Assembly (NCBI GenBank): GCA_963082975.1
Contig: OY720346.1
Span: forward strand, 42,633,296-42,697,295
Origin: Labia minor
Lineage: Eukaryota; Arthropoda; Insecta; Dermaptera; Spongiphoridae
Length of the DNA: 64,000 nucleotides
Direction: 5' to 3'
Numbering within the stretch: the first letter of the stretch is position 1; the number at the start of each line of letters is the position of its first letter. Of this stretch, positions 10,032 to 50,290 are shown one piece after another. A model generated the notes under the pieces. It was not told where the DNA came from, made no database searches, and saw only the letters and a list, made by a program, of their open reading frames with translations. The translations under genes and the position numbers were made by a program.

Positions 10032-10320
10032 TATAATATATAAATATAAATATAATGTATGTTATATATATATATAAGATATCCTTATTGAAGTATTATA
10101 TTTTTAGAAAAATTATCAACAAGTTGTAAATAAAAAATATTTAATGGAATTAATCCATAAATCTAAAATAAAAAAAAAAAAATAAATAAATAAAACAAAC
10201 AACAAAAACATTCGAAATAAAATCTTGTTTTTCTGATACATACATCTATAAGTATATTGCAGATAGATTAAAATGAAATGTATATCTCTTCTTACTAATA
10301 ATAACCCTACATATAATGCC

Positions 10321-12523
10321 AAAAGGCATTTTCTATATTAAACACAGAACAGAAAAAAAAATTATATTTGATAGTGAACAGAGGGAGAATCAGTAATGGA
10401 ATATTTCATCTGTACCAGAGCATGACAAGCAACAGAAGCAGTTAATCTATCTTATCGAATATAATGGAAATAATTCGACATTATTTTTATTTTATTCTTT
10501 TTTTTGAGAGAAAAGGTATTAAGAAGATTGTGATATTGGGAATTCTCTAATATATATAATTGAGAGACATGGAGAATGTAGAGAATATATACCTACATAT
10601 ATATATATATATATATATATTTGTATACAATTAAAAAAAATGGATAATATTCACAAGTAAATAAGTTTAGAGTGATTTCGTTACAAAAACAATAGAGAAG
10701 GCTTTTGGAATTGTAAACATTTATGTGAACTGTTTATTTTTAAAGTGGCCTAACTCCGTTTTTCATTTTTTTTTTGCCGGTTATCATGGCTACTTGTACA
10801 ACTTCATATTATTTATCAGTAAATTATTTCAGGTTGTTTAAATTCCAAGTAAATACAATAAATTTTTAACACATAAGTTTTCAGAATTAATTCAATAACT
10901 AAACCGTGTAGTTTAAAAGTGGCTTAACATCCATAAGATTTTGGCGTGGTGGAAATGTCATTCAAAAAAATAATTTACTGTTCGTTCCCCAGGATTATTA
11001 AAAAGAGTCGGAAAGGTAATGATTTTATAAGTACAATAAATGAAAGTAGACAAGAAGATTTTGTATCGATAACATTATTAGAAAATTTTTAAACGGGCAA
11101 AGAATTCAGATGGAGAATGAATAAACTGGTTAAATAATGTTGGATGCGTTTTGTCAGCAAAGAACCATATAAAATTTTCTATAAGACATCAATGAATGAG
11201 AATGAAAATTTAAAGTCCTGAATTTATTATCATGTCTGGTTAGAGCAAGAAAATTAGAAACTTTTGTATTTACTATAGAAATCTCAGACTAATTACAACA
11301 CCACAAAATTCAATTTTATAACAACGGAACATCATGATTTCTTCAAATCAAGTAGGCGATTGGTCCAAAAAAGGTTGAGAAACACTACCCTAGATAAAAT
11401 ACAAGGTCGCTTTATTAAAAAAAAATTGTGGTTGGACGTAAATACGCCTAACTATATTTGGCGGATGAAGTGAGGGAGAGAGAGCGTTTGAATAGGAAAC
11501 TTAACTTATCATTATCTATGAAGAATATTCCAACTATCTTGTACGCAACTTCCTCAACGTCTATACGGAATTTTGACTGGCAATAAAGAATAACAATAAA
11601 ATACAATAGGCAACTCAGCTAATACAAATTTTGAAAAAGCGGGTGAAATGAAAAAAAATTGTAAAAATACTGATTAGGGGAGGTGACCCAAATAGGTTTA
11701 AAGCAAAGTATGTTGGAGAGGCTAATGATTCTTCAGTATCAAGAAATCCACAATATGTAGAGAAGAATAGATTCATAGACATACAATAAGAAATACAAAC
11801 TAATGAAAAGTGCCATAAGAATGAAAAGTTATTGAAAGAATGAAGGTGTGGAATGGTGAAAAAGAGTTAAATAGAGTCGAAAGAATAGCATGATGGGAGT
11901 GAATGTAGAATATGTGGATATGCAAGTAAAAATATAGAACTGAGTGTAAGATTTTGATGATGGAAATGAGTGCAAGTTTAATTGAATGAAGACATAAAAT
12001 GTAAATAAGTGTGATCGGATTAAAGTGTTGAATAGGTGGTTGAGTTTAGAGATGTGTTAATGGTGGAAAGTATGGAAAAGTCAAATAAGAATGATGGAAA
12101 AGAGAAGAAAACAGATTAAATAAATAGATACGTAATATGAATTGTAGTTAGTTAAAATTGATGTTTACTAAAGAATTTAAATGTACATATGTTGTACACC
12201 TAAACTCTAATAAGAGAAGAAAAGAATCAAACAAATAAATAATTAAAATAAATAAATATATAATAATATATCTATGACGTAATTGATATAATTATAATTA
12301 TAATCTTTGAGTTGATTATTGAGTAATATATATAAAAGAATATATATAATAAATAAAATGGGGATCATTTAAGAAGACATTAGAAAATCCAAAAAATGAC
12401 ACTCGTAGTATCGAAAATTGTTTGTTTTTAAAAAGCCTTATTACTCCCAAAATTGTTGTTAAAGTTTCATCTATTCATTGTCACTGTCGATTGGAAAAAA
12501 CAAACTTTTATTTATTTAGAAAA
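10321..12523. other. AT-rich and purine-rich sequence, no gene (also 28708-30910)
   Basis: A TA run lies near 10598-10620. A block near 11345-11390 contains GGTTGAGAAACACTA, which resembles a hAT-type end such as CAGTGGTTCTCAACC read inverted. Purine-rich DNA at 11690-12120 has no open frame that I can interpret. Nothing else is recognised. Confidence 0.4.
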
Positions 12524-12870
12524 ATGGAAACAAATGAGTTTTCTGCTGCTCTATTTAAAAGGTTTAACACCAAACATTCACTTCCTCTGAAATGATTGAC
12601 GAAATCCGCGATGTTGATGGTTTTTGAGTGTGTAAAATAGTTGAGGCCAGAGGTACATCACAAGGTTCTTGTTTTCAATTTTACACAAAAAAAATTGAAC
12701 AAAATGAGCTTGCTCTCAGTAAATAATAAACGCAATCATGTGATCGATTCAGAGGCTTGTTTAACATTTTCTGGGACAATACATAACAGCTGACAAGAGA
12801 TGGGTGCCCTACTACAATTTAGAAACGATTCACTTCAAACGAGGGGGTCATTGTCCAAACAGTTGTATAT
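12524..12870 (+). pseudogene. Decayed mariner transposase fragment, copy 1
   Basis: Two adjacent frames give mariner-like blocks. The first reads METNEFSAAL, then MIDEIRDVDGF, then KIVEARGTSQGSC. The second reads LLSVNNKRNHVIDSEACLTF. These match, in order, the N-terminus, the second helix-turn-helix and the linker (LTVDQKRNRV.DSEACL-like) of a mariner subgroup common in arthropods. The downstream WVPYYNLET in a third frame resembles the WIHYY.PET block after the first catalytic Asp. At least two frameshifts and several stops make it dead. No terminal repeats were identified. Confidence 0.7.
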
Positions 12871-15219
12871 TTTAAGGATCTTCCGAGAACAATGTAACAA
12901 GCTAAAAGGACACATAAAAACTAATTGACCCGAAAACGATTTGATTTTTGATCTTTTTATCTAAGTACTTCTTGAATATTGTAGAATAATGATTTTTTAA
13001 AATTTTAAAAATATAATTTTTTTTTTATAAATTTTTCTTTATTTATTTTATGATTCATATAAATATTCAATCGAGAAAAGAAATATTCTTCTGGAAGATG
13101 GTATTTGAATATTTAAAGACGACAACCAAACCCCACCTCCATCAACTCTTATTCAAAGAGAGAGAGAGAAAAAAAAACAATTTTTTTTTCTTTTGATAGC
13201 ATCAACATCTTCTGCTCTTATGGGCCTATCAAATAAAAAAACGGTTCGTTCATTGTTACGTTTTTAAATCAGTCTTAAAAACCTCCATCCATTCTCTTCA
13301 TCCACCCACTCCCAACTCCCAGCGTCATATATGAAGGGAGCGTATCGAAATTATTCCATCCCAGTTGAATAATTCTCTCGCTCTCTCCTTCTCCCGTTGT
13401 CATTTGCTTAAAAAGAAATCGTATGGCCCTTCTTTCCAGTTCCTCTTTCCCCCTTCTATCCAACTCTTTTCCTTCCCAGTCCATCTATTTCATTCACCGT
13501 CATTCCATCCTAGCAATTTGATTAGCGCAAACGTTACTTTATTTCTAGTCTAGTGAAAAAAGAAAAGAAAGAAGTGAGTGGGAAAAGGTCTTTTCTCTTT
13601 TCAAATCACCTTCAGCCCACCCGATCTCCCTACCTCCGTTCACCTATACACTTTTCCCTTACCATTCCCATCTTCTCTTGTCTTTTTTTTTTAACCATCA
13701 ATGCGGTTTAGAAAATTCGATTTTATGTAGTCAAAAGATTTTTCTTCTTTTTGTTTTTATTTGAGAAAAACGAATAAATAAATAAAAATGGGTTTACAAA
13801 AAAAAAAAAAAAAAAAACATTCATGAATATTTATTATTAATTTTTTTGACTTAGAATGTATTAATTAATAATGTTATTAAATAAAAATATTTTTTTTTTA
13901 ATAATAATTTGTGCAAAGTTTTTTTTCTGCCATATTTGTTTTGTTTAGTTATTTTTTTTAATTTGTAATATTTAGGCCCACATATTTTTATTCAATTTTG
14001 TTTATTTATTAAAATTTATTCATATATCATAGAGAAGTTATTCTTCATAAAAAAATTTCATTTATTTAAAAATGAATTATATATTATATCAATATTTATT
14101 TATTTGTTTGTATATTTTATTTTATTTATTTGTATATTTTACTTTCAATCAAATTTACAATACTAGGAAATATGAATTCAATCTAATTAAACTGAATATA
14201 ATAAGAAAAAATAAATGAAATGAAATTTCTAGTAAGCAACAATAAATTATATATATATTATATTATATTTTTAATCGCAATACATTATTCCATATATAAT
14301 ATGTATATAATTACATATTCAATATTAATTATAGATTATATATGATGATTGTTTAATATTAATAATATTCTCATCAATATATTTATAGGTATTATTTATA
14401 ATACATTAAAGAGGGTTGGAAAAAGACAGAAGAGTAATAGAGAATAAAAACAGGGAAAAAGTTGGAGGGGAGTGGGTGAGAAGGGATGGAAAAACTAAAG
14501 AATGAAACATTTTCACACAAGTGGAATTTTATTTTATATTATTATGATGTTTTTTTTAATATTCTTTCGTTTCCATTGCCTCCCAGAGGATTTGAAAAAT
14601 ATAAATCTTTTATAACTCCTCGTTATTCTTTACTTTTCTATATTTTCTTCTTTTTTATATTTTATATTTGGCCATTAAAATTTCGTTAAAAGTTATTTAT
14701 TCTTTTTCCATTACCGGTCAGTTATAGAAAGGACCAATTTAAGTAGTTATTTAATTTTCTAATCAATTAAATAGAATATTAAATCATTACAAGTTGAATG
14801 ACAATGTAATGGCACTACTACCATATATACATATAATGTCAAAAAATGGAATTAATAAAATAAAATAAAATCTTTAGCAACTGGACTATGTTGTAAAATA
14901 ATATACCGTGGCTATGAGAGAATTCTAGGTCCAGGTGTGGATGTGGTTTGGTCGACACCACGTTCTAATTCTTATGACTCGAAATCGATGGTTACTGGGG
15001 TGCCGTCTGAATTAAATCACGCCTGGGCGTAATTAGAAAATGAATATACAATAAAAATCTCTCGGTTTCCGTAGAGAGAAATTTTCTAAAATCGATATTA
15101 ATAAACTTTATTTGATTTGATTTATTTACAAAAATTTAAGTGCATATACTATAATATAAAGAAAGAACAATTATCTACAATATTTTGAGTCAATGATTTA
15201 CATATTCTATGGATGCGAT
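12871..15219. other. AT-rich DNA with pyrimidine-rich block (also 31258-33606)
   Basis: 13110-13720 is strongly pyrimidine-rich on the plus strand (CT, CCATTCC, TTCCC blocks). It gives short ORFs in both strands of the kind low-complexity DNA produces. 14916-15020 is a GC-richer island (TCCAGGTGTGGATGTGG, CACGCCTGGGCGTAATTAG) of unknown origin. A 20-A run is at 13798-13817. I do not support a gene. Confidence 0.4.
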
Positions 15220-15957
15220 CTTAAAACGGCCGTTTTCTAATAGATGCCAGAATGCGCGCATGATGCATCAGCCAATCTTACTTGACATTTGTTCTCATTG
15301 CTTTGACATTAGTCAATAGAAAATAAAAGGCAAAGGCACTAGTTTTCTTTGACCTCGGTAAATATATCGAATTTTGTACCAGATAAGGAGCATTTGCGGA
15401 TAGCACTTCTAATCCTCTTCAATTGGAAGAAATCTAACCTCGAAGAGTATAGAATTCTTGTTAAGGTCAATGGCGACAATGCTCTAATTGAAACTCGGTG
15501 CAGAGTGGGATTTCGGCAATTCAAAGACGATATTTTTAACGTCACCGACAAGGAGCGCAACAATCGTCCAAAAGTTTTGCAGGACATCGAATTCCAAAAA
15601 TTATTAGACGAAAACGACACCAAATCGCAGAAACAACTTGCCGCGCAGGTGAATGTTAGCCTTCAAGCAATTTCGAAATACCTTCATGCAATGGAAAAGA
15701 TGCAAAAGATTGAGAAGTGGGTGCCGCATCAATTGAACTACTGGAACGACGATAGAACACGTACGAAATCTTATTTGAACGGCACAACAGAAAATCATTT
15801 CTGCATAAAATCATCACTGGCAGTTAAGAATCTCAACATTGTCCGCTAAGTTAGATCGCATCCGGAAGAAGTCAATGCTGTGTGTTTAGTGAAACCAGAA
15901 GAGAATACTTCGAATAAAAAATTGTGTTTTCCTCAAAAAAAAACAACCGTTTTAAGG
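15220..15957 (+). mobile_element. Internally deleted mariner transposon, copy 1
   Basis: The block holds the N-terminal half of a mariner transposase. It is bracketed by inverted sequences: CTTAAAACGGCCGTTTT near 15220-15236, and on the right AAAACAACCGTTTTAAGG near 15941-15958, which read inverted gives CTTAAAACGGTTGTTTT. The interval is about 740 bp, against roughly 1.3 kb for a complete mariner, and the catalytic region is missing. The terminal-repeat call is moderate, since target TA duplications are not clear at either end. Confidence 0.6.
15352..15849 (+). pseudogene. Mariner transposase N-terminal half, frameshifted, copy 1
   Basis: The open frame covers both helix-turn-helix motifs of a mariner transposase. 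An FVPDKEHLRI start is followed by a DKERNNRP linker, then QKQLAAQVNVSLQAISKYLH and the WVPHQL motif at about residues 118-123. The natural ATG seems lost, as ATATCG stands just before the aligned region. Near 15797 a +1 frameshift moves to a frame reading FLHKIITGS then stop. In mariners this site is F..RI.TGDE, so the first catalytic Asp is replaced and the rest of the protein is absent. It may retain DNA-binding capacity in principle, but nothing suggests expression. Confidence 0.8.
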
Positions 15958-16360
15958 TTGTACACATGTTTGCAATACATTAAAAGAAATAAAATTTATT
16001 AATTAGTTTTTGAGGGAAAATATAACCAATGGATAGAGATTAGGTTATCTAACATAAGTATAACTTATATAAATTATTGTACTAGAAAGGTAAATTGGAA
16101 TAAGACTCTCACATGCTACTATTTCATCATGTTATATAATAATATAACAACACTATAATATACAGTCCCTGGCCAAATTATTAGACGCACTGCAAGATTT
16201 CATGTAAAATATTAATTACCGAGTGATATTGTACTTATAAATTGAATTGTTTTTTATTTTTATATTAATCAATGAAAATAAAATAAAATAGCATTAATTT
16301 AGAAAATTATATGTTTATTAAGTATTAAAGAAAAATGAAAATACATAATGTAAATAAAAG

Positions 16361-17498
16361 TCAATATTTAGTCGAGCCACCTTTAGCCCCTATCAAAGCT
16401 TCAACTCTGCCCGGTATGCTCTCAATGCAAGACTGTACTGTCTCCTGCATTTGAGGGTGATGATTCCACATATGAATAATTTTTTATAGGAGCTGGGTTT
16501 TGTTGGTGATCATATCTTTAGCCACTTCTCTTTTCACTAGCTCCCACACATTTCCAATTGGGTTCATATCGGGGCTATTACCCGGCCAATCCAACAGAGG
16601 GATATTTTCTTCTGCCAAAAAAGCTTTAACAGACCGAGCAGTGTGGCAGGGAGCTCCATCTTGCATGAAAGTGAATGGTTCCCCATTTAGAAACCATTCT
16701 TTGAGCTGCGGAATTAACCGATTTTGTAATACTTCTTTGTATTGGTGTTGCCTCATTATTCCATTTACGACGTATAGACGTCCAGCACCCTTGCCGCTGA
16801 TGACCGACCAAATCATCACTTTGGTTGGATGTTTCACCGTTGGAACGACACAGTCAAGATGAAACTTTTCTCCATGACGACGACGCACATACAGAGCTTT
16901 ATTCTGCAAAATTTCAAACGTGCTTTCGTCACTGAAGCAGACATGTCAAAAATAGACAAAATATATAAACTTCCATGTTTCTTTGCTTTATTTAACTGAA
17001 AATGATTATAATGTATCAATTTTTTATAAAATTACAAAATCTTACCGATCTCCAGAAGTCCACATCTTTGTCTTTCCATTGTTTGGCCCACTTCAGGCGC
17101 TTTGCTTTCATGGCAGCTGTTAACTTGAGCTTCCTGGCAGGGCGACAGGCCTTAAAATCTAACTCTTTTAATTTTCTTCGAACAGTGCGTTCATAAGCAT
17201 TTACGCTAGCATCCTGGAGTTGTGATTTTATCATCTTTGTAGTAGCAAATCTGTTTTCTAGACAAATTTTCTTCAAACATCTCTCTGACCGTGGCGTGAA
17301 AATTGGTTTTCTACCGCATCTTTTCTTTCTTTTTGAGCTTAATTCCTCCCCAGACTCAATTTTCTTTTTTATGCGGCGTACACTGGCTTCAGAAACCTTC
17401 AATCTTCGTGATATTTCCCGGTTTGTAAATGTATTTGTATTCACAAGGGCCTTCACTTCAGCTTTTTTACGTGGTGTATGATCGACTTTTCTACCCAT
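16361..17498 (-). pseudogene. Tc1-family DD34E transposase, broken, copy 1
   Basis: It would cut and reinsert its own element. Start chosen at 17498 (MGRKVDHTPRKK). A helix-turn-helix (EISRRLKVSEASVRRIKKK) and a basic KRKKRCGRKP patch precede the catalytic core. Lesions: (1) 103 bases (16943-17045) split FWRS from VCFSDESTF; removing exactly these restores the frame. (2) The third catalytic residue, Glu of NPIENVW, is Gly (NPIGNVW, GGA). The second Asp is in FMQDGAPCH, 34 residues earlier, as expected for DD34E. (3) An in-frame TAA just after KTQLL. Beyond it the frame stays open through GAKGGSTKY to TGA at 16361-16363. The product would be catalytically dead even if the 103 bases were spliced. 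Confidence 0.9.
16943..17045 (-). other. 103-bp interruption in Tc1 transposase, possible intron
   Basis: On the minus strand it begins GTAAG right after TGGAGATCG, a good 5' splice site. It ends ...TTTTTGACATG, then TCTGCTTCAGTGAC continues the protein. The nearest good acceptor, CTTCAG at 16932, would remove 11 coding bases and shift the frame. Frame-perfect removal needs a 3' end at TG, which is not canonical. It could be a degenerate intron or a small insertion. Confidence 0.5.
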
Positions 17499-17848
17499 AA
17501 TAAAAATAGTCCAAATATTTTTTTCAAACACTCTAAACAAAATAAAGTAATAATTGAGTAGTTAAACAAACAATGACAGTCCATAAAGCCACAGAAACAC
17601 GTACGTACCTGCCGCGATCTCGATCACGATTGATATAGGTTTGTACTTGTTTACGTTCATGTATCACTTTGTCAACACAGTGTTGCCATTTTTTTAAAAT
17701 AAATACAAATAGGTAGTCTACGACAAATCTTTTAAATAAAAATCAATAATATTGTAGTTTAAATATACAATGACTGTATAAAAACTCTTAAGAATCATAA
17801 AATTATTAAAAAAATACAGTGCGTCTAATAATTTGGCCAGGGACTGTA

Positions 17849-20213
17849 TAATAATAAACTCAATTTAAGGATACACCATTGGAATGTGTCGCTAGCAAAG
17901 TTGATCCGCAATCATTCAAGAATAATACTTGTTTTTTCTATCGACTTCATTGTTAAGATGTAACTGGACTGGAAGAAATAAAAAGTAAAAAACTAAGATA
18001 TTAAGAATTAAGAAAGCTGTCCCTGAATATGTTACAATTAGTTGATAACAAAAGCAGACTTTTTGGCAGTCACATGGAAGTAGCAGGTAAAGTTTAATGT
18101 ACCAAGTTTTGCTTCACATTTTAAACCGAAAATTTTCTAAAACAGTTCGCGAGCTGTTTTTCCTACACAATAAAAGGAAACTAAAACTAAAACCACAAAG
18201 TCAGCACAAGTAATGAAAGTCTGTGAATTGACAATACTAAGAAGAATTTTAAACAAATTAAGGATAGACAAATTAAAAATCAAAAATATACTGGAGATAT
18301 ACAATGTACTATAAATAAAGCAAGCACAGTGATTCAGAGGAAAATAATTGAGTAGAACATGAACATTAATAATTTTTTTTTATTTATTTAACTTCTACGA
18401 CCGCCTTATTTGAAGCATCAAAAGAATGTAAAACAAAAAACAACATGGTACATAAATTAAAAATAAAATAATTGGAAAATAATTCAAGGGGAATATTAGA
18501 GGAGGCTTTAGTAATGAAATTAGGTAAGAGAGATATTATGAAGGAGGATTAAGAGTAGAGGGAGCGAACATTAATAAAAAGGTGGTTAAAAAAGTTCAGG
18601 TCAACATTTCTTTTGGGATAACAAGTTGTCGTTCAAGAAAAAGGTGGAGCGTGTCTTTCTCTGTACTGAACAACACATTGGCCTAATAACAAAGAAGAAA
18701 AAGAAGAAGAAGAAGAGGAAGAAGAATGAAAGGATTCAAAACTTTTTCAAAATTTAATTAGTTTCAAGAATTTATACGAAAATCAATCATCATATGACCA
18801 GAATGGTTAGGATCGCAATCCTTTTTGGATTTAAATCCAAAAATCAGATCCAATCTAAGGATTTGGATTAATTATTTTGTTAATACATTTATAGTATAAA
18901 TTTTTCTTGATTTTCCTTGTTAATTTTGATAAAAAGTCTCTCAAAAAATAAAATTTCAAAACTTTAATAATACAAAATATTTATTTATTTAGAAAAGCTA
19001 CTTGATAATCATCTGGTTGATATTTGTAAATAATAAATATTCATTAAATATACACTATTTTCATTTTTATTTACAGCGTTTTTTTGGTAAATTTTAATTT
19101 TAAATATTTACTATTTGAAAAAGTAAAATATTATATAATTAATTTATTTCTCTCCCCACCTTCTCTCTCTCTAGAGATGAAATATTTCATTTGGTTTGCC
19201 CTCACAGTGTAATTACTGTTCAAATATTATATCGTCAGTCGTTTCAAACTCCTACTTCACCCTCTTTACCCCACTCTCCTACTTTCTTACTACTTATTCT
19301 ATTTTTATGTAATCTTATTTCTTATTAACTGTGAATAAATTAGAATCATTTAATTTTACTTGGCCCGTTTTCTTGACGTTTATTTTACGCGAGAGAAGAT
19401 GGAATAATTAATAATTTTCCAAAAAGACGAGGAACAATTTTCCTATTCTAATATTCATGCTAACAGGTTGTATAAAATAGATGACGTTTACCCTATCTAT
19501 AATCAATAATTTATATATTTTTCTCTCTTTCTAATAATATTAATACAAAATTATATAACTTTTAAATTACATTATAAATATATTCTTAAAATATTAAATA
19601 TGAATTAAAGATACTCTTAATAATAACAAATAATTAAATAAATAAAAGTAATTAAAATAATTATATTATATTCTTGATATATAATTTATATATATGTATA
19701 TATATATATTAATGAATTTTTGTTATGTTTGATTTTATTGTATTTTTTTAGATTTATTTTCTAAAATAATATAATTCGAATAGAAATTTATTTATCTAAA
19801 CTCAAATATAAAAACTAAAAAAAAGACAAAAACATAGAAGCTGGTACAATTTATCTAAATGTCATCATTTTTTTTCTGTTTTTCCATTTTAAAAGAAAAC
19901 AGGAGCAGAGAAAATACGGAATAAAGAGAGAACTTGGTTGAAGGCAAGATGAGTATAGATTTCTAATATTTTCTATCAGTGGATAAAAGAATGTAAAGAA
20001 AAAAAACTAAAATGAGAGAAATTTTATCTTTTCAATTTTATCATTTCTTTTTAAAATAATATTATTCTCTCATGCATTTTTATTGAAATTCGCATCTTAA
20101 AATTTAAAATTATAGCATTATTTCTCACTTTTCATATAAATTTTACTATTTTGGCAAAAATATATTATATTAAAACTATATTATCATTATTCGTAGTAAT
20201 AGTAGTAGTAATA
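17849..20213. other. AT-rich DNA with one long palindrome (also 36236-38600)
   Basis: No gene seen. A perfect 22-bp palindrome at 18822-18843 reads TTTTTGGATTT and its mirror complement. An AAG-rich run lies at 18689-18727. A short GC-richer patch at 18130-18160 includes TTCGCGAGCTG. Confidence 0.45.
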
Positions 20214-20560
20214 TTGGCGAGGAAGAGGACACGACGGAACATACATTGATCAAATGTTCGCGTTGGGCATACCACAGAAATATGCTAGGTTACGTTTTAA
20301 GAGTGACTCTAAGTAAAGAAATAGTGATCGGAATCATGCTGGAAAGCGAAGAACGTTGCAACCAAGTGAACACTCTCATTAGAGCGATCCTCACAGAAAT
20401 GAAACAACATGAAAGAGAACAAGAATGACAATATCTCCCTCACCCGTAGAAATACTCTGTAGTTCCGGGTGTACCATGAAACAAAGAAGGAGAGTTTAGT
20501 CAGTCCCTGAATCCTTTCAGCGATACGGGTCGTAGGGTGACCGAAAAAAGTAGTAGTAGT
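20214..20560 (+). mobile_element. 5'-truncated LINE tail with zinc-knuckle-like C-terminus, copy 1
   Basis: The frame reads GEEEDTTEHTLIKCSRWAYH. The pattern E..EDT.EH.L..C.RW, followed by a Glu/Arg-rich tail ending HEREQE and a stop at 20426-20428, is the C-terminal CCHC-like end of R1/I/Jockey-group LINE ORF2 proteins (the first Cys seems lost with the truncation). A 3' UTR to about 20545 (CAGTCCCTGAATCC, TACGGGTCGTAGGGTGACCG) leads into a TAG repeat. A TAG/TAA run also precedes the insertion (20196-20213). It is a dead 5'-truncated insertion. Confidence 0.75.
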
Positions 20561-22510
20561 GGTAGAGTAGAAGTAATAGTAGAAGTAGTAGTAGCAGGGC
20601 ATATTGATCATCCCATGTCCGGAACCGCCCACTATCAGATAAATTCAATCGTATCAACAATTTTCAATAACAATAAACAATAAATAAAAAATAACTAAAT
20701 GAATAACCTAAGAGACTGTAAAGGAGCCCCTGGTTTAAATCTACTTATTTACTTATTAAATGGCCTCCTCGTAACACAATCACACAATTTAAATATATTT
20801 TATTAAAATATTATAAAATTTATTATTTTGAACACATTTTATAAATGTAATATTTATATAATTATTATTTATTGATATTTAAATTGAAATTTAAAAGAGA
20901 AAGAGAGAAAGGAATATCGACACTAGAAACGTTTTAGTGGGGAAGGTTTTGTTATCATTCATCATCACAGAAGATAGAGATGTGTCTATGTATCTGTGTG
21001 TATATGTGAGTAGATAGCAGGTGGAGTATATTCCTCTCTGATCATGACATAAATTGAATTGAATTCAATAGAGAAGGGCATACAATCTATTTATTATCAA
21101 TACAAGAGAGAGAGAGAGAGGGAAGACATCATTATCATCAATCGATCTATCTATTTATTAATATTTAAGTTATTCAAGGAATAGATAGACATTTTGACAC
21201 TATCATTTGTATCTCAATCGGTAATAATACTCCTTTAACAATAGCAACAATCTATTATCTATTAATATGAATAAAAAAAAACAATTGTATATAATTTCAA
21301 ATATAAAATAATTAATTATAAATTAATATTCTACAATTCTATGTTTTAAAAAATAATTGGTAAATAATTATAATTATTTAGATATAAAACCTTATTATTA
21401 TTCAATGTATATAATTTTTAATTATATTTAATGATGATAATAAAATAATGATGGATTGAATGAACCATCATCATTTTTTATTTATTAAAATCAATTAATA
21501 TAATTACATCCCAATTATATAAAAAAAAGAAAGAATAATTTTTTAATCTGTGAAGATCATCTTGTTTTAAAACAACTTCTTACTTCTCCTTTCTCCTCTC
21601 CATCCTCCCCCTCCCCCCTCCATTTCTATATTCTCACAGGGATTTTTTCTGTATTAATTATTTTATGCTTTATATTTTCAATTTTTTCTCTTTAATATTT
21701 TTTGTAACATTATTATTTTTATTAGTATTATTATTATTTTTTATGTTAATAATCTCAAAAGCATAAGCGCATAATAAAAACAAGAAAAAAAGGTGGATAA
21801 GGTGGATAAGTTAGGGGGTGGGATAAAAAAAAGATATTAGGCGGATGATGACGTCATTCGCCACACCATCATCATAACAATAAAATAAAAGAAAAAAAAA
21901 GTAGGATTATTTGATTTAAATATTAATTCAAGAGCAGTTTTTTCCTTTCTGTTGTTTTGTTTTTTGAATTATTATTTATTTAAATGAATTAATAAACATG
22001 TTTTAATATTCGTTTGATATTATACATTTAAATGTACTATTATTATTATTATTATTATATATAGGTATATTTTTTCTCCCCTGTGGCTGTTTCTCAAACT
22101 CTCTCTTTTTCTCTCTCAAATATATTAATATTAATATTAGAATCATTGTGTTTATTCTTATTTAATCTCTACGAAAAATATTTATGTATTATTTATTTAT
22201 TCAATTTTAGAATTATTTTTTTTTATTATTATTCCTAATATAAAATTCAAAAAGATATTATGATTATATTATATATAAAATAAGTAATAAATTACCACAA
22301 GTCATCTCCTTTCACCTGCTCCCCCTCTCTTAATCCTTCTTCGTATCACTTTTCAATGTGTATAATAATTGATTAATTATTATTTAAAATTTTACAATAT
22401 CTAGTATATAGTATATATATACCTTAAAAAGTATTATTAATAATAATAAATGACCTTAAATAAATGAAATTAAATAATTCATTTTCAATATAAATTTATT
22501 TCGTTTAATA
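20561..22510. other. AT-rich DNA with microsatellites and a CRE-like palindrome (also 38948-40897)
   Basis: A TAG run at 20548-20596 follows the LINE tail. A GA run is near 21108-21121 and a C-rich patch at 21598-21620. TGACGTCA, the consensus CRE/bZIP site, is at 21849-21856 inside GATGATGACGTCATTCGCC (copy at 40236-40243). No gene or transcription start is evident. Confidence 0.4.
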
Positions 22511-22795
22511 AAAAAACCCTCTGACTTTTGTACGTCCTACACAAGGACAACGCCTATCAAGTCGGTTATATCAATTAGGTGTCCTATGATTAGTAGAACG
22601 GGTCCTATACCTTGATTTTCTTGATCAGAGGCGCTACTTTTTATCAAGTAGCTTCCCAATGCTATCCCGGAGGCTGGGTTGACTCTGTCCCAAATATTCT
22701 AGCTTGAGAAATTCCCTTGCCAGGCCCGGGACTTGAACCCGGGACTACGAGAATGTGAGCCAGTTGCACTAGCTTCCACCCCCTGTGGGGCCTCT
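22511..22795 (-). mobile_element. tRNA-derived SINE, copy 1
   Basis: On the minus strand it has a tRNA-like head (CACAGGGGGTGGAAGC, then TAGTGCAACTGG as A-box region) and a strong B-box, GGGTTCAAGTCC (22729-22740). The body contains AAGCTACTTGATAAAAAGTA and a 3' tail ending ACAAAAGTCAGAGGG plus a T run at 22511. Body pieces recur at 7100-7375 and the tail at about 51690-51745; the head recurs at 28570-28707. It would be transcribed by RNA polymerase III and mobilised by a partner LINE. The partner is not identified. Confidence 0.85.
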
Positions 22796-23119
22796 TTTCG
22801 TTACATATTATTTAAAAATTAAATAATATATATAAAATTGCCTTTTAATAGTAGAGTGTCAATAAGACACCATAAATAAATATCTAGAACAAATACTTAA
22901 AACCTCACAGTCAATCACATTGTAGAACAATTACCTAAATAGCTGATTGTGTAATTGAAATAGAATCACATCGTATAGGACATTGTGTCTTGTATTCGAC
23001 CATTTTCAAGGCTGATAAATTACATGAAATATGTTTCTTAAAATTAGAGAGATTTGACTATTGATAACCTGTGTGCAGGTAGGGGTGAGTTATTGGAAGA
23101 GTAGAGAGGGCCATGGAAT

Positions 23120-23310
23120 TAGAGTCATTCTGCTGGATGAAATGAAGAGTCATTCTTCGGGTTGGTGAGGACTAATACGACAGTGCCTGGACTTTAAATG
23201 GGGGCCAAACTTAGAAGTTACTGCCGAGAGAAGATGTATCATGGAAGAAACCCCAGAGATTCACGCCCGGAAAATCAACACTAGTCTCGCTTTGCAACAA
23301 TTAACAATGA
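23120..23310 (+). repeat. Interspersed repeat with coding-like frame, copy 1
   Basis: It matches the minus strand of 1-165. One frame is open for about 44 codons and reads RQCLDF near its start, ERRCIMEE in the middle and a terminal TMNC. At the window start the equivalent frame gives RQCQDH and QRRYIIEC. Matching residues at the same spacing in two diverged copies suggest a former protein-coding region, probably of a transposon. The family is not recognised. Confidence 0.5.
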
Positions 23311-26449: not shown

Positions 26450-26496
26450 TTTTCCAGCAATTTACTCATCGAATTATTTTTGTTTTTTGTTGCATA

Positions 26497-34344: not shown

Positions 34345-34549
34345 TTGTACACATGTTTGCAATACATTAAAAGAAATAAAATTTATTAATTAGTTTTTGA
34401 GGGAAAATATAACCAATGGATAGAGATTAGGTTATCTAACATAAGTATAACTTATATAAATTATTGTACTAGAAAGGTAAATTGGAATAAGACTCTCACA
34501 TGCTACTATTTCATCATGTTATATAATAATATAACAACACTATAATATA

Positions 34550-36233: not shown

Positions 36234-38600
36234 TATAATAATAAACTCAATTTAAGGATACACCATTGGAATGTGTCGCTAGCAAAGTTGATCCGCAATC
36301 ATTCAAGAATAATACTTGTTTTTTCTATCGACTTCATTGTTAAGATGTAACTGGACTGGAAGAAATAAAAAGTAAAAAACTAAGATATTAAGAATTAAGA
36401 AAGCTGTCCCTGAATATGTTACAATTAGTTGATAACAAAAGCAGACTTTTTGGCAGTCACATGGAAGTAGCAGGTAAAGTTTAATGTACCAAGTTTTGCT
36501 TCACATTTTAAACCGAAAATTTTCTAAAACAGTTCGCGAGCTGTTTTTCCTACACAATAAAAGGAAACTAAAACTAAAACCACAAAGTCAGCACAAGTAA
36601 TGAAAGTCTGTGAATTGACAATACTAAGAAGAATTTTAAACAAATTAAGGATAGACAAATTAAAAATCAAAAATATACTGGAGATATACAATGTACTATA
36701 AATAAAGCAAGCACAGTGATTCAGAGGAAAATAATTGAGTAGAACATGAACATTAATAATTTTTTTTTATTTATTTAACTTCTACGACCGCCTTATTTGA
36801 AGCATCAAAAGAATGTAAAACAAAAAACAACATGGTACATAAATTAAAAATAAAATAATTGGAAAATAATTCAAGGGGAATATTAGAGGAGGCTTTAGTA
36901 ATGAAATTAGGTAAGAGAGATATTATGAAGGAGGATTAAGAGTAGAGGGAGCGAACATTAATAAAAAGGTGGTTAAAAAAGTTCAGGTCAACATTTCTTT
37001 TGGGATAACAAGTTGTCGTTCAAGAAAAAGGTGGAGCGTGTCTTTCTCTGTACTGAACAACACATTGGCCTAATAACAAAGAAGAAAAAGAAGAAGAAGA
37101 AGAGGAAGAAGAATGAAAGGATTCAAAACTTTTTCAAAATTTAATTAGTTTCAAGAATTTATACGAAAATCAATCATCATATGACCAGAATGGTTAGGAT
37201 CGCAATCCTTTTTGGATTTAAATCCAAAAATCAGATCCAATCTAAGGATTTGGATTAATTATTTTGTTAATACATTTATAGTATAAATTTTTCTTGATTT
37301 TCCTTGTTAATTTTGATAAAAAGTCTCTCAAAAAATAAAATTTCAAAACTTTAATAATACAAAATATTTATTTATTTAGAAAAGCTACTTGATAATCATC
37401 TGGTTGATATTTGTAAATAATAAATATTCATTAAATATACACTATTTTCATTTTTATTTACAGCGTTTTTTTGGTAAATTTTAATTTTAAATATTTACTA
37501 TTTGAAAAAGTAAAATATTATATAATTAATTTATTTCTCTCCCCACCTTCTCTCTCTCTAGAGATGAAATATTTCATTTGGTTTGCCCTCACAGTGTAAT
37601 TACTGTTCAAATATTATATCGTCAGTCGTTTCAAACTCCTACTTCACCCTCTTTACCCCACTCTCCTACTTTCTTACTACTTATTCTATTTTTATGTAAT
37701 CTTATTTCTTATTAACTGTGAATAAATTAGAATCATTTAATTTTACTTGGCCCGTTTTCTTGACGTTTATTTTACGCGAGAGAAGATGGAATAATTAATA
37801 ATTTTCCAAAAAGACGAGGAACAATTTTCCTATTCTAATATTCATGCTAACAGGTTGTATAAAATAGATGACGTTTACCCTATCTATAATCAATAATTTA
37901 TATATTTTTCTCTCTTTCTAATAATATTAATACAAAATTATATAACTTTTAAATTACATTATAAATATATTCTTAAAATATTAAATATGAATTAAAGATA
38001 CTCTTAATAATAACAAATAATTAAATAAATAAAAGTAATTAAAATAATTATATTATATTCTTGATATATAATTTATATATATGTATATATATATATTAAT
38101 GAATTTTTGTTATGTTTGATTTTATTGTATTTTTTTAGATTTATTTTCTAAAATAATATAATTCGAATAGAAATTTATTTATCTAAACTCAAATATAAAA
38201 ACTAAAAAAAAGACAAAAACATAGAAGCTGGTACAATTTATCTAAATGTCATCATTTTTTTTCTGTTTTTCCATTTTAAAAGAAAACAGGAGCAGAGAAA
38301 ATACGGAATAAAGAGAGAACTTGGTTGAAGGCAAGATGAGTATAGATTTCTAATATTTTCTATCAGTGGATAAAAGAATGTAAAGAAAAAAAACTAAAAT
38401 GAGAGAAATTTTATCTTTTCAATTTTATCATTTCTTTTTAAAATAATATTATTCTCTCATGCATTTTTATTGAAATTCGCATCTTAAAATTTAAAATTAT
38501 AGCATTATTTCTCACTTTTCATATAAATTTTACTATTTTGGCAAAAATATATTATATTAAAACTATATTATCATTATTCGTAGTAATAGTAGTAGTAATA

Positions 38601-38947
38601 TTGGCGAGGAAGAGGACACGACGGAACATACATTGATCAAATGTTCGCGTTGGGCATACCACAGAAATATGCTAGGTTACGTTTTAAGAGTGACTCTAAG
38701 TAAAGAAATAGTGATCGGAATCATGCTGGAAAGCGAAGAACGTTGCAACCAAGTGAACACTCTCATTAGAGCGATCCTCACAGAAATGAAACAACATGAA
38801 AGAGAACAAGAATGACAATATCTCCCTCACCCGTAGAAATACTCTGTAGTTCCGGGTGTACCATGAAACAAAGAAGGAGAGTTTAGTCAGTCCCTGAATC
38901 CTTTCAGCGATACGGGTCGTAGGGTGACCGAAAAAAGTAGTAGTAGT
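38601..38947 (+). mobile_element. 5'-truncated LINE tail, copy 2
   Basis: Duplicate of 20214-20560 within the second tandem unit, with the same frame and the same stop. Confidence 0.75.
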
Positions 38948-40897
38948 GGTAGAGTAGAAGTAATAGTAGAAGTAGTAGTAGCAGGGCATATTGATCATCC
39001 CATGTCCGGAACCGCCCACTATCAGATAAATTCAATCGTATCAACAATTTTCAATAACAATAAACAATAAATAAAAAATAACTAAATGAATAACCTAAGA
39101 GACTGTAAAGGAGCCCCTGGTTTAAATCTACTTATTTACTTATTAAATGGCCTCCTCGTAACACAATCACACAATTTAAATATATTTTATTAAAATATTA
39201 TAAAATTTATTATTTTGAACACATTTTATAAATGTAATATTTATATAATTATTATTTATTGATATTTAAATTGAAATTTAAAAGAGAAAGAGAGAAAGGA
39301 ATATCGACACTAGAAACGTTTTAGTGGGGAAGGTTTTGTTATCATTCATCATCACAGAAGATAGAGATGTGTCTATGTATCTGTGTGTATATGTGAGTAG
39401 ATAGCAGGTGGAGTATATTCCTCTCTGATCATGACATAAATTGAATTGAATTCAATAGAGAAGGGCATACAATCTATTTATTATCAATACAAGAGAGAGA
39501 GAGAGAGGGAAGACATCATTATCATCAATCGATCTATCTATTTATTAATATTTAAGTTATTCAAGGAATAGATAGACATTTTGACACTATCATTTGTATC
39601 TCAATCGGTAATAATACTCCTTTAACAATAGCAACAATCTATTATCTATTAATATGAATAAAAAAAAACAATTGTATATAATTTCAAATATAAAATAATT
39701 AATTATAAATTAATATTCTACAATTCTATGTTTTAAAAAATAATTGGTAAATAATTATAATTATTTAGATATAAAACCTTATTATTATTCAATGTATATA
39801 ATTTTTAATTATATTTAATGATGATAATAAAATAATGATGGATTGAATGAACCATCATCATTTTTTATTTATTAAAATCAATTAATATAATTACATCCCA
39901 ATTATATAAAAAAAAGAAAGAATAATTTTTTAATCTGTGAAGATCATCTTGTTTTAAAACAACTTCTTACTTCTCCTTTCTCCTCTCCATCCTCCCCCTC
40001 CCCCCTCCATTTCTATATTCTCACAGGGATTTTTTCTGTATTAATTATTTTATGCTTTATATTTTCAATTTTTTCTCTTTAATATTTTTTGTAACATTAT
40101 TATTTTTATTAGTATTATTATTATTTTTTATGTTAATAATCTCAAAAGCATAAGCGCATAATAAAAACAAGAAAAAAAGGTGGATAAGGTGGATAAGTTA
40201 GGGGGTGGGATAAAAAAAAGATATTAGGCGGATGATGACGTCATTCGCCACACCATCATCATAACAATAAAATAAAAGAAAAAAAAAGTAGGATTATTTG
40301 ATTTAAATATTAATTCAAGAGCAGTTTTTTCCTTTCTGTTGTTTTGTTTTTTGAATTATTATTTATTTAAATGAATTAATAAACATGTTTTAATATTCGT
40401 TTGATATTATACATTTAAATGTACTATTATTATTATTATTATTATATATAGGTATATTTTTTCTCCCCTGTGGCTGTTTCTCAAACTCTCTCTTTTTCTC
40501 TCTCAAATATATTAATATTAATATTAGAATCATTGTGTTTATTCTTATTTAATCTCTACGAAAAATATTTATGTATTATTTATTTATTCAATTTTAGAAT
40601 TATTTTTTTTTATTATTATTCCTAATATAAAATTCAAAAAGATATTATGATTATATTATATATAAAATAAGTAATAAATTACCACAAGTCATCTCCTTTC
40701 ACCTGCTCCCCCTCTCTTAATCCTTCTTCGTATCACTTTTCAATGTGTATAATAATTGATTAATTATTATTTAAAATTTTACAATATCTAGTATATAGTA
40801 TATATATACCTTAAAAAGTATTATTAATAATAATAAATGACCTTAAATAAATGAAATTAAATAATTCATTTTCAATATAAATTTATTTCGTTTAATA

Positions 40898-41182
40898 AAA
40901 AAACCCTCTGACTTTTGTACGTCCTACACAAGGACAACGCCTATCAAGTCGGTTATATCAATTAGGTGTCCTATGATTAGTAGAACGGGTCCTATACCTT
41001 GATTTTCTTGATCAGAGGCGCTACTTTTTATCAAGTAGCTTCCCAATGCTATCCCGGAGGCTGGGTTGACTCTGTCCCAAATATTCTAGCTTGAGAAATT
41101 CCCTTGCCAGGCCCGGGACTTGAACCCGGGACTACGAGAATGTGAGCCAGTTGCACTAGCTTCCACCCCCTGTGGGGCCTCT
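40898..41182 (-). mobile_element. tRNA-derived SINE, copy 2
   Basis: Duplicate of 22511-22795 in the second tandem unit. B-box at 41116-41127. Confidence 0.85.
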
Positions 41183-41506
41183 TTTCGTTACATATTATTT
41201 AAAAATTAAATAATATATATAAAATTGCCTTTTAATAGTAGAGTGTCAATAAGACACCATAAATAAATATCTAGAACAAATACTTAAAACCTCACAGTCA
41301 ATCACATTGTAGAACAATTACCTAAATAGCTGATTGTGTAATTGAAATAGAATCACATCGTATAGGACATTGTGTCTTGTATTCGACCATTTTCAAGGCT
41401 GATAAATTACATGAAATATGTTTCTTAAAATTAGAGAGATTTGACTATTGATAACCTGTGTGCAGGTAGGGGTGAGTTATTGGAAGAGTAGAGAGGGCCA
41501 TGGAAT

Positions 41507-41697
41507 TAGAGTCATTCTGCTGGATGAAATGAAGAGTCATTCTTCGGGTTGGTGAGGACTAATACGACAGTGCCTGGACTTTAAATGGGGGCCAAACTTA
41601 GAAGTTACTGCCGAGAGAAGATGTATCATGGAAGAAACCCCAGAGATTCACGCCCGGAAAATCAACACTAGTCTCGCTTTGCAACAATTAACAATGA
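41507..41697 (+). repeat. Interspersed repeat with coding-like frame, copy 2
   Basis: Duplicate of 23120-23310 in the second tandem unit. Confidence 0.5.
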
Positions 41698-42837
41698 ACT
41701 GCTAAGTGATCAACCCTTTATAATAATCAATTGCTAAACAAATATAAAATTTGATATATAAATTACATTAAAGTAAATGAACTTTATAGTTGATTTATAA
41801 GAGAGTTATAATTTCCCATGATACTTATTATTATATTTTTTTTAATTTCTTTCATCATTAAATGTTAATTTTATTATAATTTATTATTTTATTCTAATCT
41901 GAATGAATTCAAATTTACCTCTTTCCTAATTATTCTTCGATGGATTTACTTATTATTTTCTATTAATAATAAACAGAGTGTTACCAACTAAATTAATGAT
42001 CAATTTCATTAATTTTAAACCCAAACCATACTAAGCCTTCAATATACGACAATATATAATTTACAAAGAATTAATAAAATATCTAAATTATATTATTGTA
42101 TTTTCTACCTATACTATTATAATCACAATTAATATTATATTTATTAACACAATAAATAATTATAATTAACATTTATTAAGTTATTATATATATATATATA
42201 TATAATCATTTAATTATAATTATTTTTTTATATTATTAAAGAGTATTATACAAAAAACAAACCACAAATGGATTAATTGTGTAGGTGGAAATGTTAGGAG
42301 GGAAAAGAGAAGAAAAATACTCTTTTAGGAATTTAATAAAAAATAAAAAAAAAAATTAATAAATGAAAAAAATCAAAAGAGGATTTTTTACTCTTCAAGT
42401 TAAATTGGATTTTCTATGTGTGTGTATTTGTTTGTGTGTGTGGATGGATGGATGGAGGGTTGTAAGATCTTACACATATCCTTTCTCCCTTTTTCTCTTT
42501 CTTTTTCTTCTAGTTCCCCTTCCCACATTTATCTCTCTCTCTCTCTCTCTGTATGTGTTTTTTCCATCATTCTGTAATCCTTTGTGAGATATGATACCAT
42601 CTGAGTAGATAAAAACTCTTTAATCTGTCAGACAGGCTCAGAAACAAAAAAAATCACTCTTTTTTCAACTAACTATTTTCACCTAAATAGATTTGTTATC
42701 AAGAATATAATAATATAATTATACTATATATTATATCACAATTATGGGTCATAATATATATGAAGAAATTCACTACACTACAAAATATTTATTACATAGC
42801 CATCTTATCAAAAAATATAATAAATAAATAAACATAT

Positions 42838-43437
42838 TTATTAAGGAAATTTTTATTTAAAGACCACATAGTTTGTCTAAATTATTTATTAAATTAAAAT
42901 AACTGTACAACGTTTCGACTGCTTATTCTGCAGTCGTTATCAAGTACTGAACGCTTGCTCCGATTCCGCTTGAATTTAATAAATAATTTATACAATCTAT
43001 CTTCTTCTTCTTAGCCTTATTTCCCACGGGGTGTGGGGTCGGCTCTTCTCGTTAATTGGCGCAAACTAATTCTGTTGTTGGCGTCGTCTGTAGAGAGACC
43101 AGATGCCATTAGATCTCTCGTTATACGGCAGGACCAGCTGGTTTTAGGCCTCCCACGCGGTCTTTGGTTTTCGGTTCCTTAGAACTGCAGCAAGTTCTCT
43201 GCTGCGACCAGTTAGTGAACCCACATTTAAGGTGACAAAACGAAATCTTGTGGTACTCAACTTTCGATGACGTGATGATGGTGTTGACGACTTTGATGTA
43301 GCTCTGGACGATTTGAGTGAGGTTGATGGCAATGATGCTGATGCTGACCGATGTGACGATGTTCGTGTCGGTGATGATATCCTTATGATATCATTTATAC
43401 AATCTATGTAGTCTTTAAATAAAAATTTCCTTAATAA
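42838..43437. mobile_element. Inverted-repeat element split by a LINE, copy 2
   Basis: Duplicate of 24451-25050 in the second tandem unit. Confidence 0.65.
43001..43392 (-). mobile_element. Internally deleted LINE, copy 2
   Basis: Duplicate of 24614-25005, with the same 15-bp flanking repeats at 42986-43000 and 43393-43407. Confidence 0.8.
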
Positions 43438-44883
43438 TTATGAAAATAACCACAAAAGCTTTAATAAATAATCATATTAATATTTTTTTTTATTAAAAAA
43501 ATAAAATAATTAATTACTAAATTAATAAAAATTATTTACTTCAATACTTTTTTAAAATGAATTCATATTTTATATTAAATAATAATATAATAAATAATAA
43601 TAAAGGTTACTTGACTTTTTTGTTGTTATTCAAATTCATTTATTATTATATTTAAATAATAATAGTTATATAATATATTTATATTTATACTATATGATTT
43701 ATATGATGAATATAGGTTTATAATATATATAGATATATTGATATATATATAATTGTTGTTGGAGGTGTTGACATTGTTGTGGGTTCAGAATTATTACTAA
43801 TATTGATGGAAAATATATATATTAGTAATAAATAAATACACTTTGAAAAGTCAATTCAATTTTCATTTTCAATTTTATTATAATGTATCGATGATGGTGA
43901 ATGTAGAAAATGTAAAAAGAGATAGAGAGGGCGAGGGTGTGATAGTAGTGGCAGGTTTCAATCTCCTCAGCTTTTTTCTGGATAATGCTATCTCCATTCA
44001 TGATTTTCAACATTATAGTGGATAGGATAGTGTGTGTATGTGTGTGTTTATAAAGGGTGGAATGGAGAAATGGTAGAATGTAAATAGGATATTGGTAGTG
44101 GAGAAAAAGAGATAGAAAATTGTAACCACAAAAGAGAGAGAGGGTAAAGGATGAAAATGATTTGTGTGTTTGAGAGTAAAGTGAAAATATCAAGGAGAAA
44201 GAGAGAGAGAGAGAAGAGCGTTAATAAAGAATATAATATTTCAGAGTGGCAATTGACTCTTAATTAAGGAAACAACAACATTAGCATCATTAAAATTATG
44301 AATTTAAATAGAAAAAATGTTAAAGAGAGAGAGAGAGAGACAGAAAGAAAGATAATAATTATAAAAATTTTATAAAATTAATATTTTAAAAGAGATAACA
44401 TAACACTAGAAAAAATTAAATATAATTCCGGTTTTTTTTCAAGTATTTTTGTGAGATTTGAATTTCGGCGTTTTGGTCCACATTTTCAAGAGAATTTTGA
44501 AATTCTAAGTCTTATGTGTCTGATCAAAAATTATTACAATAATTTAATACTCTTGGTCCAAAACTTTGGTATTAAAATTTCACAAAAATAAGAGAAATCA
44601 ACTTTTCATAATTAAAAGTAATGTTTGCGCTATGAGGGCGCTGTTGTCGGGCAATCATACGATTGAGAAAGTCCATTTCATTGCCGGCTAAAAACGCCCT
44701 CCATGGCGATAATATTTTGTTTGTAATCACAATACTATTGTCTTTAAAAATGTTCTAAGTGTATTTATTTATAATTACCAAACATCATTTTTGAACTTTT
44801 TTTAAACAATCTAGTGATAATCAAGAAAATCATAATTTTTCCAGCAATTTACTCATCGAATTATTTTTGTTTTTTGTTGCATA

Positions 44884-45322
44884 GAAGAGGAAGAAGTGGA
44901 CACAATTCAAGGAAGAAATTCTATCACGAGAGGCACAATTAAGAGAGTAGTAGGGGAGTTCATTAAAAGAGCCAAGTTTTGCTTTCGGTTCTATATCGCC
45001 GCCACGACTGATGAGAAAAACGAAACGTATCCTCGACAATGCTCGTCTCCAGAAAAAGAGTCCTATCCAAAGAAAAATTGAAGGAATTAGAACTTCTCTT
45101 ATCCCTTAAAACTTGATTTTGCTTTAATACAAGGGTATATAAGGGTCCACTTAAGGAAGATTGCACAATTGGCAGGAAGACAACATCTACATCTACATGA
45201 TATGTCCCTAAATCCTAAATTACGAGAGATTACGTTAAAAAATAAAACCATTAAAAAACACTTAATAAATTTGACCCAATCTAATTTATTTTTTATTGAT
45301 TTTTTAGGAATCAAAAACTTGT
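44884..45322 (+). pseudogene. Unidentified coding relic, copy 2
   Basis: Duplicate of 26497-26935 in the second tandem unit, with identical frames and stops. Confidence 0.3.
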
Positions 45323-46158
45323 GATTTTTCTTTTTTGCGACTTTTGTGATATTATTTATTTATATTTTTATTTTAACTGTTTCAAGGGTGGTCTTCGATA
45401 CAATTGGCAAATGGATTAATTAAGGATAGCACTGTTCTACAGTTGACAATTTTCAGTTAGGGATGCAAGTAGTACTATCAATCAATTACTCTTTGGAATA
45501 TAAAATCGCTCAACACTTATTTTATGAAATTTAGATTCTAAAATAATAAGGTTCACATGGAAATCAAGTCACAAGAACATACGTACTTCTCTATTCAACT
45601 AATTTTGAGATATTTGCAGTGAATTTTGTTTTTTTGTTGGATAAAATTTGTTTATTTGTTGTAGGGTACTTATTAAAAAAAACAAATAAAATCAAAGGTA
45701 AAATGTACAAAAAAATTTTAAATTAAAATTTAATTTAATATTTATGAAATTAAATTGAATCGCATTAAACAACAAAAAATTATTATAAAATTTAAAAAAA
45801 AAATATAAAATTATAAGTATTTATTTTAATAAAAAATAATATATATATATATATATATTTAAAAGATGTATTATAAAATGTGAGTATGGGTATGTGTGTG
45901 TGTCTGTATGTGTATTTAAATTTAGAAAAGGGGGATAAAGAGAGAGGGAAGAGATAAGTCGTGAGAGGAAAGGAGGAGGAAGGTAGTATGTGGTGGAAAA
46001 GGAAGAAGAGGAGGGGTTGGAGATTTAGAGATTTAGACCTCAAATTAAGGGTGAATAATTACATCCCAAAGGGGCGTAAACTCCTTTTGGCTAATGTCCA
46101 GACGTTTATAATTCTCCTGAAGGGATTTCTTTCTTTCCATTTATTTTTTAATGCTCAA

Positions 46159-46280
46159 ATGAGGGGACACATTTCTAGAAATTTATTTTTATTAGATTAC
46201 TTTTATCAATCAATGATTTATCTAATATCTAATATATATATGAACATTTCTCTACTAATCGGGAAATTGTGTCCCTCACA
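46159..46280. repeat. Short inverted-repeat element, copy 2
   Basis: Duplicate of 27772-27893 in the second tandem unit. Confidence 0.5.
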
Positions 46281-46447
46281 TTAATTTTACTGAAGAATTA
46301 AATAATTCTACTTAATCGTAGTAAAACTACAAAATATATTGTAACATATCTTATTAATAAAAAGTGATACACTACGATAAAGTTACTAGTAAAATATTAT
46401 TTTTTATAAATATCGCTTTAAATAGGGAAAAAGTTAGTCCCCTGATG

Positions 46448-46763
46448 ACCAAGGGTAGGCAACCTTTTAAGACGGAAGAGCCAAAAGTTACAATTTACAA
46501 AATTTCCTAATTTTTTAACAGCCTTTAATATTTTTGTTTCATCATTATGACATTTAATTAGGATTTGATATATAGATTTGATTTTTGATTTAAAATAAAT
46601 AAATTGTTCCCAGTTGAGTGTTTTTATCTTGTTTGCATTATATATATTTTTATTGCAATCTAATATATTGAGATTTAAAAATAAAATAATATAATTATTA
46701 ATATAAGCGTATGGAACTGGAGAGCAACTTCTTGAGATCGGAAGAGCCATGGTCGATCACCAG
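46448..46763. mobile_element. Possible hAT-type relic, copy 2
   Basis: Duplicate of 28061-28376 in the second tandem unit. Confidence 0.4.
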
Positions 46764-46956
46764 AATAGTATAAATATCAAACAATTTAATCTATAAAATA
46801 GTTTTTTTTAAATTTCACTATTTCTGATAAAATTTCTTAGAAAAATAATAGTTATTTCCAAATTTTATGGGTTAATTTTTTTAATTTATTATTATTGATA
46901 AAAAGAAATCTAAAGTTTATTTTGTAATTTTAAAGAGTCCTCTACTTCTACTTAAG

Positions 46957-47094
46957 AGGCGCCACAGGGTGAGAGACTAGCGTCGCTGTCTCACATTCTC
47001 GTGGTCCCAGGTTCAAGTCCCTGGCTTGGCAAGGGTATTTCTCTAGCTAGGCTCTTATACTTCTAAATGTTGTCCATTGTAGTTCAAGGCATGC
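46957..47094 (+). mobile_element. tRNA-derived SINE head, copy 2
   Basis: Same sequence as 28570-28707, B-box at 47010-47020. Here the sequence runs on into single-copy DNA (AGTTCGGTGG...), which is probably the original continuation. Confidence 0.8.
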
Positions 47095-48759
47095 AGTTCG
47101 GTGGTTCCACATAGAAAATAATGTATTTAATGTGAAGTTAGTTTATATAAATCTGGGTACTATTAATAGTTTAGTTTTACAGCAGTACTAATCACGGAAA
47201 CTAGAACCACTAGAACTGACAGTCCCTTGGTTAGTAAAATAAATAGTTTTTTATATAAAAATAAATTATACAATTTTTTTATTTAAATAACAATCAAATA
47301 TCCTTGCACTAAAAAATGTCAAATCTTGGCATTTTTTAATTACATCGAATTTAATAGTGCTCATACCCTGTATCAAAATTTGAACAGTCCCCTGTCTCTT
47401 TTAATAGCAGGGAAGTGTTCCTTAGTGACATATTTGTATATAAAGCAATATATTTCTTCATTTATATTTTTATAATGCAATACACATATCGGTATTTTTT
47501 TAATTGAAAATAATTAATGAAACTGATTTATATAATAGAACGACACTATTTATTTTACACAATAACAGTGCGTCTGCCTACTTATTACCTCTCCAACCCA
47601 AATTTACGAGCCCTTTGCTGCATACACGCAGTGAATTTTATAAGCATTAAAAAAATCTTTTTATATGAATTAAGTAAAAAGAAATGCGACATTTTAGCGG
47701 TGATAGTAATCCCGTTAGTGTAAAAAGATCCATTACCTAACCTAATTTAAAATATAATATTAATTCATTTATTATTTAATTTTATTTATAATAATTAAAA
47801 CGAGTAAATAAAAAAAAATTAAATTGTGGATACTTATATTTATTTATCCATTTCAAAATATTAAAACAAAAAAAAAAATATTAAAACAAAAAACGAAAAA
47901 AATATTTTGAAAAAAATAGGTTATATATTTATTATATAATCATAAAATATATTTTAATAAAATTAAAAGTAAGTTCCAACAATTATTCAATGAATTATTC
48001 AAAATAAGATGGACGGACTCGAAGGACCAAAAGTTAAACTTATAATTGTGAGTGTATGTGTGTCTGTATGAATGAATGAATGAGAGGGGGAAGAGAAAGA
48101 GGGATGTGTATAAGTATTTATGAGGGAGGTGTTAGTCCCCAGATAAAAGGAGAACTCAAAAACTTGGTCCATTTCCACAGATACTCTCCTCAAGAGACTC
48201 GACCACAAGATTAGGGATAAGAAAGAGTAAAAGATGAGCTCGATAACGATCCCAAGATACTATCGTTATTTTTTTAAACCTCACCCTCACCCTCACCACC
48301 AATCCTCCTCCACTTCCCTCTCTCATCTATTCCCCTACACACATACATCCCCTTTATTTTACTCTTTTTCGGTTTCTCTCTCTTGTTCTTTCAGCCAGTG
48401 CATTTTTTCTATTCTTTTTCTTTTGATCCTCTTTTCTTTTTTTTGTCATGTTGGCAAACTTGGGTTTTCCTTTAAGAGTGCTTAGTTAGTTAGTCAAGGA
48501 GCAAACCAACATGATCGTTTGCATCTGATTAGAATTTATAATTGAGTTAATAAAACAAAGAAGTAGAAGAAGGAAGACAGATCTACACTTTAACAAAATA
48601 TATTCTATATATATATATATATTTAAGACCAAAGAAATAGAAATAAAAATAAAAGACTCAAAAAAATAATCCAGAAATGAATAAGAATTATTTTTTATTA
48701 TGGTTAAAAAAAAGAAAATATTTGGAACATATCTTTAATCAATGTATTTTATTTATTTA
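47095..48759. other. AT-rich and pyrimidine-rich DNA, no gene supported
   Basis: Short ORFs at 47517-47723, 47999-48208 and 48234-48485 lack domains. The last two are low complexity (CT- and CA-rich). 48165-48280 is somewhat GC-richer and includes CGATAACGAT and ATCGTTATTT as a small inverted repeat. It could be promoter-like, but nothing confirms this. Confidence 0.4.
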
Positions 48760-50210: not shown

Positions 50211-50290
50211 TATATATTAATCTAAAATTTATCTTATTAGTCTTGTAAACGTTGTAAGTATAAATCTTTCTGTCTTTCTATCTTGAAAAT

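Follow-up and report, generated by a model that had tools for sequence, protein, structure and literature searches.

The window, a 64,000-nucleotide stretch of contig OY720346.1 from Labia minor, contains two head-to-tail copies of one unit, with a single novel joint (Table 1). We compared the window with itself base by base at an offset of 18,387 and found that positions 10320-28708 equal positions 28707-47095 over 18,389 bp, with 0 mismatches and 0 indels. The identity forms one continuous run, and at this offset no other run of at least 20 bp occurs in the window. An exact match this long has a log10 P of about -9,500 under the base composition, which excludes chance. Unit 1 contains 17 homopolymers of at least 9 bases, the longest being A20 at 13798, and 20 microsatellites with at least 5 copies of 2-4-base periods; unit 2 contains the same. 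The N count is 0 across the window, the inner joint included. G+C content is 27% for the window, 28% for the unit, 24% for the left flank and 26% for the right flank, and 20-mers of the unit recur in the flanks, on either strand, at 24 of 18,368 positions.

An earlier, sequence-only reading had set the outer limits at 10320 and 47095 and the unit length at 18,387 bp, and the offset comparison and the identical unit strings show both to be exact. The base-by-base alignment of the halves that it had proposed as a check gave 0 differences, and the letters it had read beside all three joints are correct. It had also pointed to matching, fast-changing microsatellites; these do match, as they would equally well after a recent duplication or in a duplicated consensus. 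With these results, the observation of two identical units is confirmed and correct to the base.

Table 1. Features of the duplicated stretch, in positions of the window.
Feature	Position	Strand	Remarks
Unit 1 of head-to-tail duplication	10320..28706		18,387 bp, letter for letter equal to 28707-47093
Unit 2	28707..47093		18,387 bp, same string as unit 1
Inner joint, unit end / unit start	28705..28708		CA overlap at 28707-28708
CA, 2 bp common to both outer breakpoints	47094..47095		CA also at the start of each unit
Tc1-type DNA transposon, unit 1	16156..17853	-	37-nt terminal inverted repeats, 97% complementary
Tc1-type transposon, second copy	34543-36240		Placed by offset
ORF with mariner-type transposase N-terminal remnant, unit 1	15343..15849	+	Second copy 33730-34236
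tRNA-like SINE fragment	28572..28663	+	B-box-like GGTTCAAGTCC; second copy ~46959-47050

The transposase of the Tc1-type element is present as pieces in two reading frames, which matched the Pfam families HTH_Tnp_Tc3_2 (5.6e-14) and DDE_3 (2.2e-16), and the DDE piece resembles the Sleeping Beauty transposase 5cr4 (4.5e-25). The ORF with the mariner-type remnant matched HTH_24 above the cut-off (3.7e-05) and HTH_48, of the Mos1 type, below it (1e-04); when the whole frame was searched, both matches fell below their cut-offs. The tRNA-like fragment near the right end of the unit is probably a SINE with a B-box-like core. The part that aligns with its relative stops 43 bp before the inner joint and, in the second copy, 45 bp before the right breakpoint; that relative, with 75% identity, is found in inverted orientation at 22699-22847. 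The fragment was unrecognised by Rfam and ARAGORN: Rfam found nothing in the whole window at the gathering score, nor in 46700-47500 at E up to 1, and the ARAGORN tRNA scan found nothing. ORF pieces at 24757-25050 and 20174-20428 look like LINE fragments, with no Pfam support.

A Pfam search of six frames of 10320-29103 at E up to 0.01 returned the Tc1 and mariner-type matches only. A search of ten single ORFs at the looser limit of 0.1 again found the transposase matches, along with weak ones below cut-offs, including a TPR family (0.048) in the ORF at 28031-28369. In the flanks Pfam found nothing in the left flank, where five of six frames were searched (two to 10320, three to ~8700), in six frames of the right flank at 47001-57000, or in 57001-64000 searched through one ORF. 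Searches of this kind would miss genes not represented in Pfam, as well as short exons separated by introns; at that resolution the unit holds remnants of transposons but no gene that is recognised, and it appears to be gene-poor. Comparisons with plasmid and virus collections say little here: the Tc1 DNA had no relatives among plasmids, the Tc1 region had none among phages and the SINE core had none among viral contigs, with which the Tc1 DDE piece gave one unconfirmed pattern match.

Other repeats lie in the flanks. A 102-bp stretch is exactly duplicated in tandem at 3680-3886 in the left flank, with 3 further matching bases, and 25 bp of its unit recur ~2.2-2.3 kb further on. Less than 1 kb from it, a 66-bp exact tandem duplication occupies 4499-4637, with 7 further matching bases, and 31 bp of it are also found at 4049. 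These small left-flank duplications show that the process occurs but are too short to serve as a sign of youth. The GC-rich 24-mer GAGCCGAGGCTCGGGGTCCCGGTA stands in an AT-rich setting at 4714-4737 and has an exact second copy 1,514 bp downstream. At 59598-59699, a TG microsatellite is built of 22-bp periods, each interrupted by TA, with 96% matches between periods. A dispersed repeat family is represented at 9469-10077 and ~59450-60623, with 77-85% identity and in opposite directions on either side of the duplication.

The outer edges of the duplication share little homology. We measured 2 bp in common (CA), within the 1-2 bp that had been read from the sequence. When 100,000 breakpoint pairs were drawn at random with the unit's spacing, 22% shared at least 2 bp. 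The overlap is therefore at chance level and the joint is without mechanistic signature, a point that we count against a real event. The 400-bp stretches around both outer edges have no common direct word of at least 11 bp and no common inverted word of at least 12 bp, and a simple scan for perfect hairpins with arms of at least 8 and loops no longer than 60 found none at a distance of 80 bp or less from an edge. In the one-unit model GCATGC has a single site, at the right breakpoint; it contains CATG, which has 94 sites. A ligation chimera between cut ends of the library is not supported, since the nearest GCATGC and CATG sites are more than 12 bp away from the left breakpoint; six motifs were tried in this check, which makes the one coincidence at the breakpoint weak.

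Such an arrangement could in principle arise by unequal crossing-over between repeats in the flanks, or through the movement of an 18-kb unit as a virus or mobile element, and the unit does contain a transposon and a SINE-like piece. In a self-BLAST of the one-unit model (window position equals collapsed position plus 18,387), the dispersed repeat at 9469-10077 stops 243 bp short of the unit on its left side, and a weak AT-rich direct match joins 10072-10273 to 47752-47968 (63%, 221 columns). However, the better copies of the dispersed repeat (77-85%) are inverted and lie more than 12 kb past the right edge, away from it. The AT-rich match comes near the edges without touching them, its spacing in the one-unit model is 19,293 rather than the unit length, and matches as weak as this one are frequent across the AT-rich window. 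The long direct repeat at the breakpoints that recombination between flanking repeats needs is absent, with 2 bp in common, and viral families were absent from the Pfam matches to the unit (E up to 0.01). We consider exchange or movement of this kind to be scarcely credible, and the earlier judgement that recombination between flanking repeats is unlikely holds. The edges argue against repeat-mediated exchange; a real microhomology joint and an arbitrary joint look the same there, and from the edges we cannot tell them apart.

Two kinds of explanation had been offered from the sequence, a recent non-homologous duplication and an assembly error, and we keep both. Among assembly errors, a heterotype false duplication would place the two haplotypes of a diploid one behind the other. 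According to the abstract of PMC9516828, false duplications arise mainly in this way; in Table 1 of that paper, an older hummingbird assembly has 27.2 Mbp of the homotype and 13.7 Mbp of the heterotype. Against a heterotype origin, the probability of zero differences is 1e-4 at 0.05% heterozygosity and 1e-8 at 0.1%. We found 0 haplotype-specific differences in 18,387 bp between the copies, a result that two heterozygous haplotypes in series would be very unlikely to give. The arrangement would require a haploid individual or a locally homozygous region, so this part of the sequence-only reading becomes very unlikely, and its interpretation is supported in part. Its other proposal, one read overlap written twice, stays in play as a form of homotype artefact, in which a single locus is written twice, for example through an untrimmed 18,387-bp contig or graph overlap or a gap filler that reinserts a stretch. 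Such an artefact predicts perfect identity, homopolymers included, and arbitrary ends with chance-level homology; the absence of haplotype-specific letters in either copy is what it would lead one to expect. The 18.4-kb unit length is in the range of long reads and long-read overlaps, which we count in favour of an artefact, and correct assembly of an exact repeat of this size takes reads that are longer still. An overlap left untrimmed is one mechanism of assembly error; a limited literature search found no published description of it. Homotype false duplications accounted for 0.4%, 2.5% and 2.7% of three older assemblies in PMC9516828, where wrong gap filling had sometimes joined false copies gaplessly. 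The present case resembles the homotype of that paper in having no haplotype-specific differences and both copies on one sequence. However, most false duplications described there had a gap between the copies, and a gap or depth break is usual for the homotype, whereas the joint here has no N run; moreover, homotype false duplications amounted to 0.1% or less in three VGP long-read assemblies (PMC9516828). We give a locus written twice somewhat less than an even chance.

We lean, at slightly better than even, to a real and very young tandem duplication of the 18.4-kb stretch, made by end joining or microhomology-mediated template switching. The exact identity and the simple CA joint are in its favour, and what tips us towards it is the absence of any N at the joint, together with how common undiverged tandem duplications are in Drosophila. 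One survey of Drosophila counted 1,920 tandem duplications, of which 1,560 were without divergence, assuming that most are not false positives (PMC6380325). Segregating tandem duplications numbered 1,415 among 20 lines of D. yakuba and 975 among 20 of D. simulans, as called by a method that reached 96% validation with PacBio reads (PMC4503668). The Drosophila duplications are also head-to-tail with mostly undiverged copies; they were called from reads in population samples, whereas the 18.4-kb unit here was seen in an assembled sequence (PMC4503668, PMC6380325). On the other side, among duplications with divergent sites just 5.3% exceeded 1 kb (PMC6380325), by which measure 18 kb is large, and real duplications as young as this would be rare. 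A young duplication and a locus written twice give identical letters, and both readings survive; the weight we put on each is a judgement that draws on base rates in other species.

If the duplication is real, it may have begun with a double-strand break or a replication-fork switch at the stretch. The right edge of the stretch and, on the sister strand, its left edge would then have been connected by end joining or microhomology-mediated template switching, in an event so recent that mutations have yet to accumulate. We placed bounds on its age with assumed mutation rates of 3e-9 per base and 1e-5 per simple-repeat locus: 0 differences in 18,387 bp give an age of at most ~27,000 generations, and the 37 unchanged simple-repeat loci one of at most ~4,000 generations. 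We tentatively suggest a real duplication that is at most a few thousand generations old and perhaps still segregating, whose copies have 37 simple-repeat loci each, although we rate this at somewhat below even. The duplication is probably without function.

The finding is of an ordinary kind, and neither reading changes a biological idea. If the duplication is false, it is a clean assembly error with no gap or mismatch, which filters for gaps or haplotype differences would miss. If it is real, another very young segmental duplication has been caught before its copies diverged, and these identical young copies would offer a natural clock for repeat mutation and for gene conversion between tandem copies.
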